Assembly: GCA_018402765.1 (NCBI GenBank)
Contig: JAGYIE010000003.1
Coordinates: forward strand, 186,001-250,000
DNA length: 64,000 nt
Source: Vicingaceae bacterium
GTDB taxonomy: Bacteria; Bacteroidota; Bacteroidia; Flavobacteriales_E; Vicingaceae
Reading direction: 5' to 3'
Part shown: positions 25,495 to 28,914 of the stretch, piece by piece
Layout: each line of letters opens with the position of its first letter
How positions within the stretch are numbered: the stretch's first letter is position 1
Made by a program: the position numbers and the translations under genes
Notes under the pieces: generated by a model
The model's input: only the letters and a program-made list of their open reading frames with translations
The model's database searches: none
What the model was told of the DNA's origin: nothing

Positions 25495-25702
25495 GAATGG
25501 GTTCGTTTTAGTTGTTGTGATAAAGGTACAAGTTGAGACTAGAAATGTTTGTCAAGAAAGGTTAATTCTTTTGCAGGGTGATTTCAATTTAAGAGGAGTA
25601 TAGACCATTTTTTCTGAGGCCTAGTCGTTGAATGTTTAAAAATAATTTACTCAAAATAGGATATTTAGATATAAAATAATTATTTTAAAAAAATACTGAA
25701 CT

Positions 25703-26905
25703 ATGAAAACTTTATATATAACATTAATCACCTTCTTATTTTCATTTTCACTTATTGGCCAATCCAATTGGCGACAAGTGAACACGAATACCCAAGAACA
25801 GATTGGGAGTGTCATATTTCAAGATAGCTTGGTTGGTTATGCTACTGCAGGGAATAAAATTCTAGCATCTACCGATGCAGGTGAAAATTGGTCTCTTTTT
25901 TATGAAGATACTACGTTGCTTGCATATTCATCTATTACTGTAGTTAATGACAGTATCTTTATAATAGGAGCTGATACTGGAATAAACTCTCAAACTAGAA
26001 CTTTTTCTATCCAATTAATTAATACTTTCAGTAAACAATTAAGAGAGTTTAGTTTAAGTTTTTTTCCCAAACCTGGAAGCTTATTACTTTCAAGGAGTAA
26101 TAGCGTATTAATACTTAGTAATTCTGGAGATTTATTAGAATATAGAAATGGAAGTTTTAATATTGTGTTAAGTAATTGCAAGCATTTTAGTTACAATAAT
26201 AATATTCTTTTAGGTGTAGCAAATGATAAAATTTTTATAAGTTCAAATCTGAGTCAGAATTGGGATACTATTTCTATTCCTTTATATAGTTATCCTATTT
26301 CTAATTCATATTTTAATGGAGGTGACACAATTGTATTATCATTCCCAACCTTTCCAACGCACTATAGCATATCTTATAACAGAGGTTTAACATGGAATGA
26401 TCAAACTATTGTAGCTTTAGCAAACACACAATTTTTAAATAGTAAACGTTTTTTTGGACTACATTCTTATTTTACTCCTGCGGTTGTTAAAACTACTACA
26501 AATGGAGGAATTAATTATTTATCTGATACATTATCTTTGAGTAAAAAACTTTTTGGAGTTTACCAATATTCTCGTCAACTCGCTTTTGTCTACGGTGAAA
26601 ATGGCCTACTATTCAAATCCACCAACCTTGGAGGTTTAGTTGGCATAAATGAACACCAAAGCTTTAAAGAAAGCGACTTCACCATTTTTCCCAATCCATC
26701 ACAAGATTATTTGCAAATTAAACTAGCCGATAAAGATCGTTTTAGTGTAAATCAAATGACCATTTTAAGTACTAATGGAGCTGTTTTAGATAGATTCGAT
26801 GCTTACCAAGATCGCATAGAATTAAGCAACTATCCAAAAGGAATGTACGTGATACAGCTGCAAACAGATAATGGAAGTGCTTCTAAATCGTTTGTGGTGA
26901 AGTAG
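25703..26905 (+). CDS. T9SS type-A cargo protein with BNR/YCF48-like propeller
   Basis: The 400-residue protein has a signal peptide (FLFSFSLIGQ|SNWRQV), a body with repeats of the sialidase/photosynthesis-stability type (VGYATAGNKILASTDAGENWS; SSNLSQNWDTISIP; SYNRGLTWNDQT), and a type-A sorting domain (FTIFPNPSQDYLQI...YPKGMYVIQLQTDNG...KSFVVK). It is probably a beta-propeller exported by T9SS to the surface. Its ligand or substrate is unknown. No promoter box of the standard type is evident in the very AT-rich leader. Confidence 0.82.
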   Translation: MKTLYITLITFLFSFSLIGQSNWRQVNTNTQEQIGSVIFQDSLVGYATAGNKILASTDAGENWSLFYEDTTLLAYSSITVVNDSIFIIGADTGINSQTRTFSIQLINTFSKQLREFSLSFFPKPGSLLLSRSNSVLILSNSGDLLEYRNGSFNIVLSNCKHFSYNNNILLGVANDKIFISSNLSQNWDTISIPLYSYPISNSYFNGGDTIVLSFPTFPTHYSISYNRGLTWNDQTIVALANTQFLNSKRFFGLHSYFTPAVVKTTTNGGINYLSDTLSLSKKLFGVYQYSRQLAFVYGENGLLFKSTNLGGLVGINEHQSFKESDFTIFPNPSQDYLQIKLADKDRFSVNQMTILSTNGAVLDRFDAYQDRIELSNYPKGMYVIQLQTDNGSASKSFVVK

Positions 26906-26920
26906 AAACTAAAAAAATGA

Positions 26921-27375
26921 ACTACTGTTGTCCGATTAAAATCTTTAAGTTTTTAAGCTTAAAGATTTGATATAATTTACTCCTATTCTTTTGATAAGAA
27001 AATTGATTGCCATAGTACTAGGGCTTTCATTTTTGTATTTTTCATTTTAACTCTATTTTTTTAGTGAACGGAACGGCCTTGAAAAATCTTTAAGAATTTC
27101 GAATTTAGGCCTTAGAAAGTTTGACTAGCTCCGAAGAATTGAGGAGATCCGTTAAACGTCTTAGGGGTAAAGAGTAATTTGAAGAAGAAATTTCACAGCC
27201 TTGAATTTCCTGCCTGCGGCAAGGCAGGTTGGTTCATTTTGGACCCTGTCCGCCATCTGGAGGAAAGACAAAAGAACATTAAAGAAATATTCATTTTCCA
27301 AGAAACTAATTCAAGGGACAATCTTCAAATAATCATTGGTGTATTTAAAGCATTTTTTTATCGGACAATAGTAAT
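26921..27375. mobile_element. 455-bp non-autonomous element with terminal inverted repeats (MITE-like)
   Basis: The two ends are imperfect inverted repeats of 21 bases, at 26921-26941 and 27355-27375. They differ at three positions and share the core TTGTCCGAT. Inside there is no credible gene: the only longer open frame (27179-27406) starts with TTG, is Lys/Phe-rich and runs out through the right end. Just inside the left end is an 11-bp palindrome (AAATCTTTAAG ... CTTAAAGATTT). The middle holds two REP-like palindromes. No target-site duplication can be seen. It is most likely a transposon remnant or MITE mobilised by a transposase elsewhere. Confidence 0.55.
27209..27264. repeat. Two REP-like palindromes inside the element
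   Basis: CCTGCCT...AGGCAGG (27209-27228) and TCCGCCA-TC-TGGAGGA (27249-27264, one mismatch) lie 20 bases apart. They are much richer in GC than the surroundings and resemble the CCTGCC / TCCGCC palindromes scattered in Bacteroidota genomes. Confidence 0.5.
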
Positions 27376-27382
27376 AATACAT

Positions 27383-27426
27383 ACAAAAAACGCCCTTCGA
27401 TTCTAAAATCGAAGGGCGTTTTTTGT
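27383..27426. terminator. Bidirectional terminator downstream of gap
   Basis: A perfect 20-bp stem (27383-27402 with 27107-type complement at 27407-27426) with CTAA loop, GC-rich in the middle (CGCCCTTCGAT) and bounded by A and T runs. It lies 15 bases after the gap stop on the minus strand. Confidence 0.9.
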
Positions 27427-27441
27427 ATTCCTAAAGATCTA

Positions 27442-28914
27442 CTAATAGTAAATCAATCTTCTAACTTTAGAAACGTGTTTCGCTAAACGAATTACTTGCT
27501 TGGTATAGCCAAACTCATTATCATACCATACATAAAGAACCACGTTCTTTTTGTCAGGAGATACAATAGTTGCAGGACTATCGAATACTGAGCAACAAGA
27601 GTTACCAACAATATCAGAAGAAACCAATTCAGGATCTACTGAGTAGTAAATTTGGTTCACCAAGTTACCTTCCAGTGCCGCATTTCTCATTACTTCATTT
27701 ACTTCTTCGAAAGAAGTTGCTGTTTTCAATGAGAGATTCATAATCGCTAATGAACCGTTAGGTGTAGGAACACGCACTGCATTTGCAGTCAATTTATCTT
27801 GTAGCTGAGGTAATACTTTAGTTACCGCTTTTCCTGCACCAGTCTCTGTAATTACCATGTTAATGGCTGCCGAACGACCTCTACGAGTACTGCTGTGCAT
27901 GTTGTCCAATAAGTTTTGGTCATTAGTATAAGCATGTACCGTTTCGATGTGTCCTTTTTCAATTTTGAACTTGTCTTCAATTACTTTAAGAACAGGAACA
28001 ATAGCATTTGTCGTACAAGAAGCCGCTGAGAAGATATTCTCTTTTTCAATATCCGTCTCTCCTTGATTAACACCATAAACGATGTTTGGAATCTCTTTTC
28101 CTGGAGCAGTTAATATCACACGTTCAACACCTTTTGATTTCAAGTGACGACTTAAAGCTGTTCGATCTTTGAATACACCTGTGTTGTCTATTACTAAAGC
28201 ATTATTGATTCCAAAAGCAGTGTAATCAATCTCATCGGGATTGTTTGCATTGATCATTTGAATCACTTGACCATTTACAGTCATTGTGCGTTCAGCAGTG
28301 TCAACTTCTACAATACCTTGGAAAGCTCCGTGTACTGAGTCATTTCTCAATAAGGCAGCTCTTTTCTCTAATGCTACTTCATTGTCACCTCTTGTAACAA
28401 TTGCTCTTAATCTCAACTGCTGACCTTTCCCAGCTTGTTTGATCAACTCTCTAGCTGCGATTCTTCCAATTCGACCAAACCCATAAAGGATTACGTCTCT
28501 TGGTGCTAAGTGGCTTTTTTCTTGACCAATCATAGCCTCTAGTTTGTTGGATAGAAAATCTGCCTTGGTTGCAAAGTTTTCTTCCTCTAAGGTCCACTCA
28601 CTAGCTAATTTACCAATGTCAATTTTTGACGGAGCAAGGTCTAATTTTAATAATTCCTGCGCCAATTCATTGGTCTCGTAAATGCTTACAGGACGATTGG
28701 TAAAGTTTTGTGTAGTGTTGTGAAGCTTTAAAACTTCTGAAACACTTTCATCCACTAATGTGTGGCGAAAAAGGACTAATTCTACTGATTTGTTGTAAAG
28801 TAAACTTCCAATCGAGTTGATTAATTCTACAGCCTGCATCTTGTGGTCGATCCAATTGTTTAACTCGCTTTCAAATTCACTTGTAACCACAGGTTTTCTC
28901 ATTTCTGTGCTCAT
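27442..28914 (-). CDS. gap: Glyceraldehyde-3-phosphate dehydrogenase, long form
   Basis: The 490-residue protein has a ~135-residue N-terminal extension before a normal GAPDH domain. The NAD-binding GFGRIGR is at residues 145-151, the catalytic Cys in SAASCTTNAIVP, the following HAYTNDQNLLDN, and the C-terminal WYDNEFGYTKQ. It oxidises glyceraldehyde-3-phosphate in glycolysis or runs in reverse. The long form is common in Bacteroidota and other groups. The extension is helical and of unknown role. It starts 49 bases after the rpoD stop on the same strand, and could be co-transcribed. A strong terminator follows. Confidence 0.95.
   Translation of the reverse strand: MSTEMRKPVVTSEFESELNNWIDHKMQAVELINSIGSLLYNKSVELVLFRHTLVDESVSEVLKLHNTTQNFTNRPVSIYETNELAQELLKLDLAPSKIDIGKLASEWTLEEENFATKADFLSNKLEAMIGQEKSHLAPRDVILYGFGRIGRIAARELIKQAGKGQQLRLRAIVTRGDNEVALEKRAALLRNDSVHGAFQGIVEVDTAERTMTVNGQVIQMINANNPDEIDYTAFGINNALVIDNTGVFKDRTALSRHLKSKGVERVILTAPGKEIPNIVYGVNQGETDIEKENIFSAASCTTNAIVPVLKVIEDKFKIEKGHIETVHAYTNDQNLLDNMHSSTRRGRSAAINMVITETGAGKAVTKVLPQLQDKLTANAVRVPTPNGSLAIMNLSLKTATSFEEVNEVMRNAALEGNLVNQIYYSVDPELVSSDIVGNSCCSVFDSPATIVSPDKKNVVLYVWYDNEFGYTKQVIRLAKHVSKVRRLIYY

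Follow-up and report, generated by a model that had tools for sequence, protein, structure and literature searches.

A MITE with IS4-type ends in a Vicingaceae genome and the structured, RNA-like repeat that it carries

Positions 26921-27375 of the window (the whole 64,000-nt stretch of Vicingaceae DNA analysed here) had been read as a small transposon-like element with inverted ends and no transposase. The locus raises the question of whether this stretch is a mobile element of the MITE type or ordinary spacer, and of what its interior consists.

Inverted ends and an IS4-family relative

The inverted ends described in the original prediction were recovered, with ACTACTGTTGTCCGATTAAAA (26921-26941) matching the reverse complement of 27355-27375, ATTACTATTGTCCGATAAAAA, at 18 of 21 positions and sharing the core TTGTCCGAT. 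A repeat search independently returned arms at 26923-26941 and 27355-27373 (19 nt, 89% complementary). The match had been judged too long for chance; the 14-mer TTGTCCGATWAAAA indeed occurs twice in the window, both times at these ends (0 of 100 dinucleotide shuffles). Across the source genome (G000; 3.10 Mb in 16 contigs) it gave nine matches, compared with 0 for a reversed control pattern. When two mismatches were allowed, the end pattern (219 matches) was indistinct from its control (213), and the analysis was therefore confined to close matches and to paired ends. While the ends are real, the best borders lie two bases further in on each side than first drawn. The element and its ends, with the window copy designated M1, are as follows.

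26923-27373, no strand: MITE copy M1, 451 bp, with borders set by sister elements that have target duplications
26923-26941, plus strand: left terminal inverted repeat TACTGTTGTCCGATTAAAA, from direct reading, repeat search and genome matches
27355-27373, minus strand: right terminal inverted repeat, TACTATTGTCCGATAAAAA in minus-strand reading, on the same basis as the left end

Similar ends bound eight short elements in the source genome (M1 to M8) and a 1.4-kb IS of the IS4 family. They stand as convergent pairs around M2 (441 bp), M3 to M8 (279-464 bp) and three IS copies, IS_a, IS_b and IS_c (1.4 kb). The consensus of this group, ~19 bp long, is CAYTRNTGTCCGATWAAAA; M1 carries T instead of the consensus C at both outer positions. 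The ends are therefore not confined to the window: a genome search for inverted copies, proposed as a check, returned further pairs together with two 1401-bp copies that contain a DDE transposase. Short, without a transposase, present in several copies and sharing its ends with a transposase-bearing element, M1 fits the proposed MITE reading. The interiors of the MITEs in this genome are of at least two types.

Target duplications were assessed by comparing 9-bp flanks of 12 elements (M1 to M8, M9 from the congeneric genome G002, and the three IS copies). Flanks were identical at 9/9 positions in six (M2, M3, M5, M6, M8 and IS_b), at 8/9 in M7 and M9, 7/9 in M4, 5/9 in M1, 4/9 in IS_a and 3/9 in IS_c. 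As five of the seven other MITEs of the source genome have perfect 9-bp duplications, we read the missing duplication of M1 as decay.

IS_a and IS_b, each 1401 bp, differ at two positions. Their long open frame encodes an IS4-family transposase (NF033592, E=3e-57, 194.2 bits against a cut-off of 115; PF01609, 7e-22), and DUF4372 was detected in a fragment of IS_c. The motif Y-x2-R-x3-E-x6-K, which we take to be the signature of the IS4 family, was found by eye in the translation of the presumed parent as YKKRWSIELLFKQLK. The N-terminal and catalytic parts of IS_a and IS_b are encoded in different frames; the 345-codon frame recurs in a further copy (L050; 99.6% identity over 1369 bp), and IS_c is interrupted by stops. 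No uninterrupted transposase was seen among IS_a, IS_b, IS_c and the 345-codon frame of L050. Near-identical IS4-family copies occur at L048, L052 and L050, and at the first two the DUF4372-like and catalytic parts are in different frames, which could reflect either a shared break or a programmed frameshift.

The MITEs are not shortened versions of this IS. By blastn (E up to 0.01) similarity to it was confined to 19-29 bp at one end, and was absent in M1, M2 and M8. This near-absence of interior similarity rules out an origin by simple internal deletion. M1 resembles known MITEs of IS4-family ISs in being short, in lacking a transposase, in having the ends of an IS4-family element of the same genome and in the 9-bp duplications of its sister copies. 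Unlike them, its interior is not visibly derived from the IS and consists of a structurally conserved repeat that is also present outside MITEs. The presumed 1401-bp parent shares its transposase with the IS4 family (NCBIfam NF033592, DUF4372 + DDE_Tnp_1) and has ends similar to those of M1, which itself has no transposase. The common ends, the IS that bears them and the duplications at sister copies are direct observations. From these we infer that the IS4-family transposase acts on these MITEs: the ~19-bp ends would be recognised in trans, giving the 9-bp target duplications.

Insertion sites and neighbourhood

Two congeneric genomes (G001 and G002; GAPDH protein 96-97% identical) were compared at the corresponding sites. 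For M2 the empty site is exact: the flanks join over one AAAGGTAAT in G001, and in G000 this 9-mer stands on either side of the 441-bp element. At the window site, both genomes pass from an Fe-alcohol dehydrogenase gene to the terminator-like hairpin of GAPDH with 27 and 45 unmatched bp between. They lack about 25566-27386 of the window, comprising the MITE and the neighbouring sorting-tail gene. Conservation as ordinary spacer, the outcome that would have spoken against the original prediction, is thus not what the relatives show, yet the missing block offers no clean single-insertion empty site. The suggested empty-site comparison accordingly gave an exact result for M2 in G001, while for M1 the absence in G001 and G002 is part of a larger lineage-specific block that includes a gene. 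Around the GAPDH genes of the best 80 named relatives, no blastn match to the M1 element was found (E up to 0.01).

These comparisons decide the first part of our question. If the ends of M1 matched by chance, or served as a regulatory inverted repeat within ordinary spacer, the lack of a clear target duplication at M1 would be natural, and this is the sole point in favour of that explanation. It is contradicted by the nine genome matches against none for the control, by the shuffles, by IS and MITE copies that have such ends together with target duplications, and by the exact empty site of the sister copy M2. We regard it as refuted and give it next to no weight.

The surroundings of M1 have features of their own. 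The gene at 25703-26905, missing with the MITE in both congeneric genomes, encodes a protein with a Por_Secre_tail, a sorting tail for type IX secretion. In G001, two stand-alone copies of the repeat described below (L148 and L150) adjoin an apparent sorting-tail-like coding end (FELYDVLGK, translated by eye). On the other side, the GAPDH gene (27442-28914) encodes 490 aa with an NAD-binding domain from residue 140 only. Its best named relatives are Flavobacteriales, from which the class is presumably Bacteroidia. As the match to most of the best 80 begins near residue 14, the N-terminal extension is kept. The GAPDH gene is followed by a perfect 22-bp, terminator-like hairpin at 27381-27428, the largest nearby and outside M1. 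A counterpart with changed sequence was recognised by eye in both congeneric genomes.

A structured repeat in the interior

The interior had been described as non-coding, with a palindrome near the left end and REP-like palindromes. The first point holds, since the single ORF of at least 60 aa that falls in M1 (27179-27406, 75 aa) has no Pfam match at E up to 0.001. The left-end palindrome was also found (26939-26968). The REP-like palindromes were borne out in part: one, CCTGCCTGCGGCAAGGCAGG, was recognised by eye at 27209-27228, and the largest hairpin nearby lies beyond the element. What this description overlooked is that the interior is not filler and contains a copy of a widespread structured repeat. 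Its parts are listed below.

26939-26968, no strand: short palindrome inside the left end, from the repeat search, absent from sister M2 (by eye)
27072-27279, plus strand: copy of the structured, RNA-like repeat, from a model match at 27072-27234 and by-eye similarity from there to 27279
27075-27200, plus strand: long imperfect hairpin of the repeat with closing helix GGC/GCC, from folding, alignment and covariation
27209-27228, no strand: CCTGCCTGCGGCAAGGCAGG, a REP-like palindrome within the linker, by eye and from alignment
27232-27277, plus strand: 3' hairpin of the repeat, whose arms at 27232-27241 and 27269-27277 enclose an enlarged loop of 27 nt (by eye)
27280-27319, minus strand: apparent remnant, probably the 5' half of an older antisense repeat copy, from alignment of M1 and M2 (reversed) with M3, M4, M7 and M9

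The repeat came to light because the middle of M1 recurs in G001 without the ends in blast searches. Seven G001 copies have ~170 bp in common, with borders judged by eye to be GTCCTTGAG and AAAGAACA; three of them, on contig C19, also have some common flank (by eye). The unit of ~170 nt consists of a ~125-nt imperfect hairpin and a 3' hairpin. Most copies also have a pseudoknot, in which UUGAN after the long hairpin pairs with an NUCAA loop of the 3' hairpin.

Ten copies (eight from G001, M2 and window positions 27072-27211) folded into one long nested hairpin plus the 3' hairpin, with compensatory change at 15 of 46 pairs, and were used to build a covariance model, R1. The window scored 144 bits with R1, part of it (27072-27211) being itself one of the ten model sequences. 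A larger, model-aligned set of 27 copies was drawn from 39 sources by leaving out short, near-duplicate or long-apical ones. RNAalifold predicted 44 pairs in this set, 37 of them with compensatory change. When the named structure including the pseudoknot was scored, 40 of 51 pairs had two-sided compensation and 91.5% of cells paired. The covariation score of 0.531 compared with 0.177 for shuffled and at most 0.154 for slid controls, in an alignment that leans towards the model structure.

We repeated the scoring on a MAFFT alignment, which is not fitted to the model, of 22 of these copies (the window, L174, L186, L192 and L206 left out). Here 33 of 51 pairs were two-sided, 83.0% of cells paired, and the score of 0.434 exceeded those of shuffled (0.177) and slid controls (0.214 at most). 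Shuffles reached the observed number of pairs with a change on both sides in 1 of 500 cases. For further pair types they did so in 62 of 500, making this the one of five measures that was not beyond shuffles. Covariation thus exceeded both shuffled and slid controls, as is asked of a structured noncoding RNA.

The pseudoknot was evaluated separately, as the covariance model itself does not include it. The 5-nt complement was present in 35 of 41 class-wide rows, compared with a shuffled mean of 5.1 and maximum of 11; these rows come from 21 chosen loci and include many near-identical tandem copies, with 17 distinct loops. Among the five pseudoknot pairs, two-sided cells numbered ten in one, one each in two and none in two. 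With the strand taken as written, G-U pairs outnumber A-C mismatches (57:24 and 63:35), a modest hint that the repeat is an RNA read in the plus direction of the window. On this model the cargo would be transcribed.

The copy in M1 has departed from this pattern. Its long hairpin is intact, and by eye the loop of its 3' hairpin has no UCAA(G). With a 27-nt loop devoid of UCAA, the pseudoknot cannot form as it does in other copies. The CCTGCCTGCGGCAAGGCAGG palindrome of the linker is absent from the other aligned copies, and similar ones occur in L138 and in M9 of G002. The linker palindrome, the lost pseudoknot loop and the missing target duplication together suggest an old, probably inactive copy, and M1 is probably immobile now. 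Folded whole, M1 is more stable than shuffles on both strands (z of -4.8 plus and -3.0 minus), an excess that comes partly from pairing of the inverted ends.

Distribution and possible nature of the repeat

In the source genome, cargo and vehicle largely coincide. Six of seven matches to a second covariance model, R2 (E up to 0.01), lie inside MITEs (M1, M2, M3, M4, M6 and M7), the seventh (C9:359352) having no good ends. The two congeneric genomes were tested for ends scoring at least 16/18. In G001, 13 of 20 R2 matches were tested (L349 was skipped and six had no locus), with both ends found in L347 and L348, one end in L333 and neither in ten. All nine were tested in G002, with both ends in L326 and L332, one in L334 and neither in six. 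Flanking duplications of 9/9 accompany L348 and L332, and L326 and L347 lack a full duplication.

Alignment of the MITEs suggests how the present M1 interior may have arisen. M1 and M2 (both reversed) and M9 (as is) start like M3, M4 and M7, and the likeness extends across the 5' half of the repeat copy in those elements; the remnant at 27280-27319 is of this type. From there on they follow the 3' end of another repeat copy, in reverse. The simplest reading of these sequences is that one repeat copy landed antisense in an older MITE already holding another, which would have founded the M1/M2 lineage.

Beyond the genus, R1 matched 18 of 46 genomes of the family and R2 matched 88 of 295 sampled genomes of the class, in 62 of 156 genera; the weakest R2 matches (E near 1e-3) may be false. 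As nine candidates per genome were scored in the class search, copy numbers are lower bounds. Tandem copies were found at L239 (four), at L238 (three) and at L240 (three, in a 333-bp array), and copies also occur at contig ends. The array at L240:8433-9619, in a distant class member, repeats a 333-bp unit 3.6 times and contains three model matches, and more repeat clusters are present in L237, L238 and L239. Context was counted for 52 hand-picked copies, including that of the window (L001): 49 lie outside open frames of at least 150 codons, 34 have an upstream open frame that runs in the same direction, and six are in a divergent setting. A phage collection searched with one stand-alone copy gave no match. 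In a viral collection two stretches matched one degenerate 3'-end pattern, an insensitive one that matches 20 of 352 loci including those two. Matches in plasmids were limited to five records, all Persicobacter (22 places); these match the 3' end of the query, and none covers 80% of it.

Rfam 15 offered no identity for the repeat. At the gathering score, only two tRNAs were found in the window, and at E up to 1 the scanned loci gave nothing relevant. PyrG leader, SpF22, SNORA41, mir-7616 and Leu leader matched below threshold, either outside the core or touching only its border, and were rejected. Candidate RNAs of Rfam such as Flavo-1 and Bacteroidales-1, which are named in PMC2864571, are likewise structured, from Bacteroidetes and of open function; unlike them, our repeat has no relevant Rfam 15 match among copies in the scanned loci. 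No description of the repeat was found in titles and abstract starts of mostly open-access literature, nor in passages of PMC2864571, PMC3733652 and PMC6006769, and it is apparently undescribed so far.

Taken together, we consider it highly probable that M1 is a MITE moved in trans by an IS4-family transposase, with a structured repeat as cargo that is most likely a noncoding RNA gene or an RNA-borne mobile unit. The borders of stand-alone copies bear on how the repeat itself may have spread. Identity between copies of one genome ends no more than about 25 nt from the unit in G007, in G044, in most G030 pairs and in one G119 pair, and close to the unit in G014 and G045. It extends further in G008, G010, G082, G187, G232 and one G322 pair, so a mobile unit is clear in some genomes only. 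We also looked for 5' truncation with a fixed 3' end by pairwise comparison within ten genomes. In both pairs of G322 and in one of the three from G110 the match ended no more than 3 nt from the end of the core, while pairs in G082, G232 and G187 run 10-120 nt beyond it; with 3' borders this variable, we make no claim of such truncation.

The longer identities leave some room for an origin of the repeat as an ordinary small RNA gene or 3'-UTR element that is not itself mobile, was duplicated passively and was caught by MITEs. Structure kept despite sequence divergence would be expected of such a gene, as would the location of 49 of 52 copies outside long open frames and the co-directional upstream frame in 34. 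Identity well beyond the unit in G008, G010, G082 and G187 and the common flanks of the three C19 copies in G001 also agree with it. Passive duplication does not readily give the sharp borders seen in several genomes (G007, G044, G030 and one G119 pair), where most pairs lose identity on either side no more than about 25 nt from the unit. Several G001 copies, moreover, have nothing in common outside the unit. We hold this explanation to be possible, if doubtful. Somewhat less probable still, and offered tentatively, is that the repeat is a mobile, non-autonomous SINE-like RNA unit of the class. Its constant, pseudoknotted 3' end would be recognised by an enzyme supplied in trans, either a reverse transcriptase or some nuclease, and IS4-type MITEs would be one vehicle among others.

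Borders at or near hairpins in stand-alone copies, including pairs in G007, G014, G044 and G045, could instead point to DNA-level mobility, with a REP-like or IS200/IS605-like unit moved by a Y1 (RAYT) transposase that recognises the hairpins as single-stranded DNA. REP and REPIN sequences with a RAYT are likewise dispersed, intergenic, palindromic and without protein, a description that presumably also fits ERIC-like palindromic repeats. The structured repeat differs from REP/REPIN in its ~170-nt length, its pseudoknot and its strong covariation, and none of 25 Y1 loci, each taken with flanks of up to about 1.5 kb and without regard to Y1 subclass, contained a credible copy (best E=0.09). A loose pseudoknot scan of the same loci gave many matches of other sequence and, among those listed, none of the repeat type by eye. 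The 25 loci therefore do not support a link to RAYT or Y1. Two of ten copy-bearing genomes had no Y1 match, nor did the incomplete G002, and the modest excess of G-U over A-C also argues against a unit recognised as DNA. REP stems described in passages of PMC6006769 are far shorter than the unit. The same paper remarks on atypical structures adjoining subclass 2.6 tnpAREP genes in Bacteroidetes, the nearest lead in the literature. We consider RAYT-driven movement unlikely, and prefer the reading of the cargo as a noncoding RNA gene or RNA-borne mobile unit.

For this group of bacteria, the MITE is a vehicle of a known type, and the more interesting object is its cargo, a repeat that is unusual, widespread and RNA-like. 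In practical terms, genome assembly may suffer from its arrays and its copies at contig ends, and the repeat gives rise to spurious small ORFs, that of 75 aa in M1 among them. Should the repeat prove to be functional or mobile as an RNA, the 3' pseudoknot that recurs in it would make both questions directly testable.
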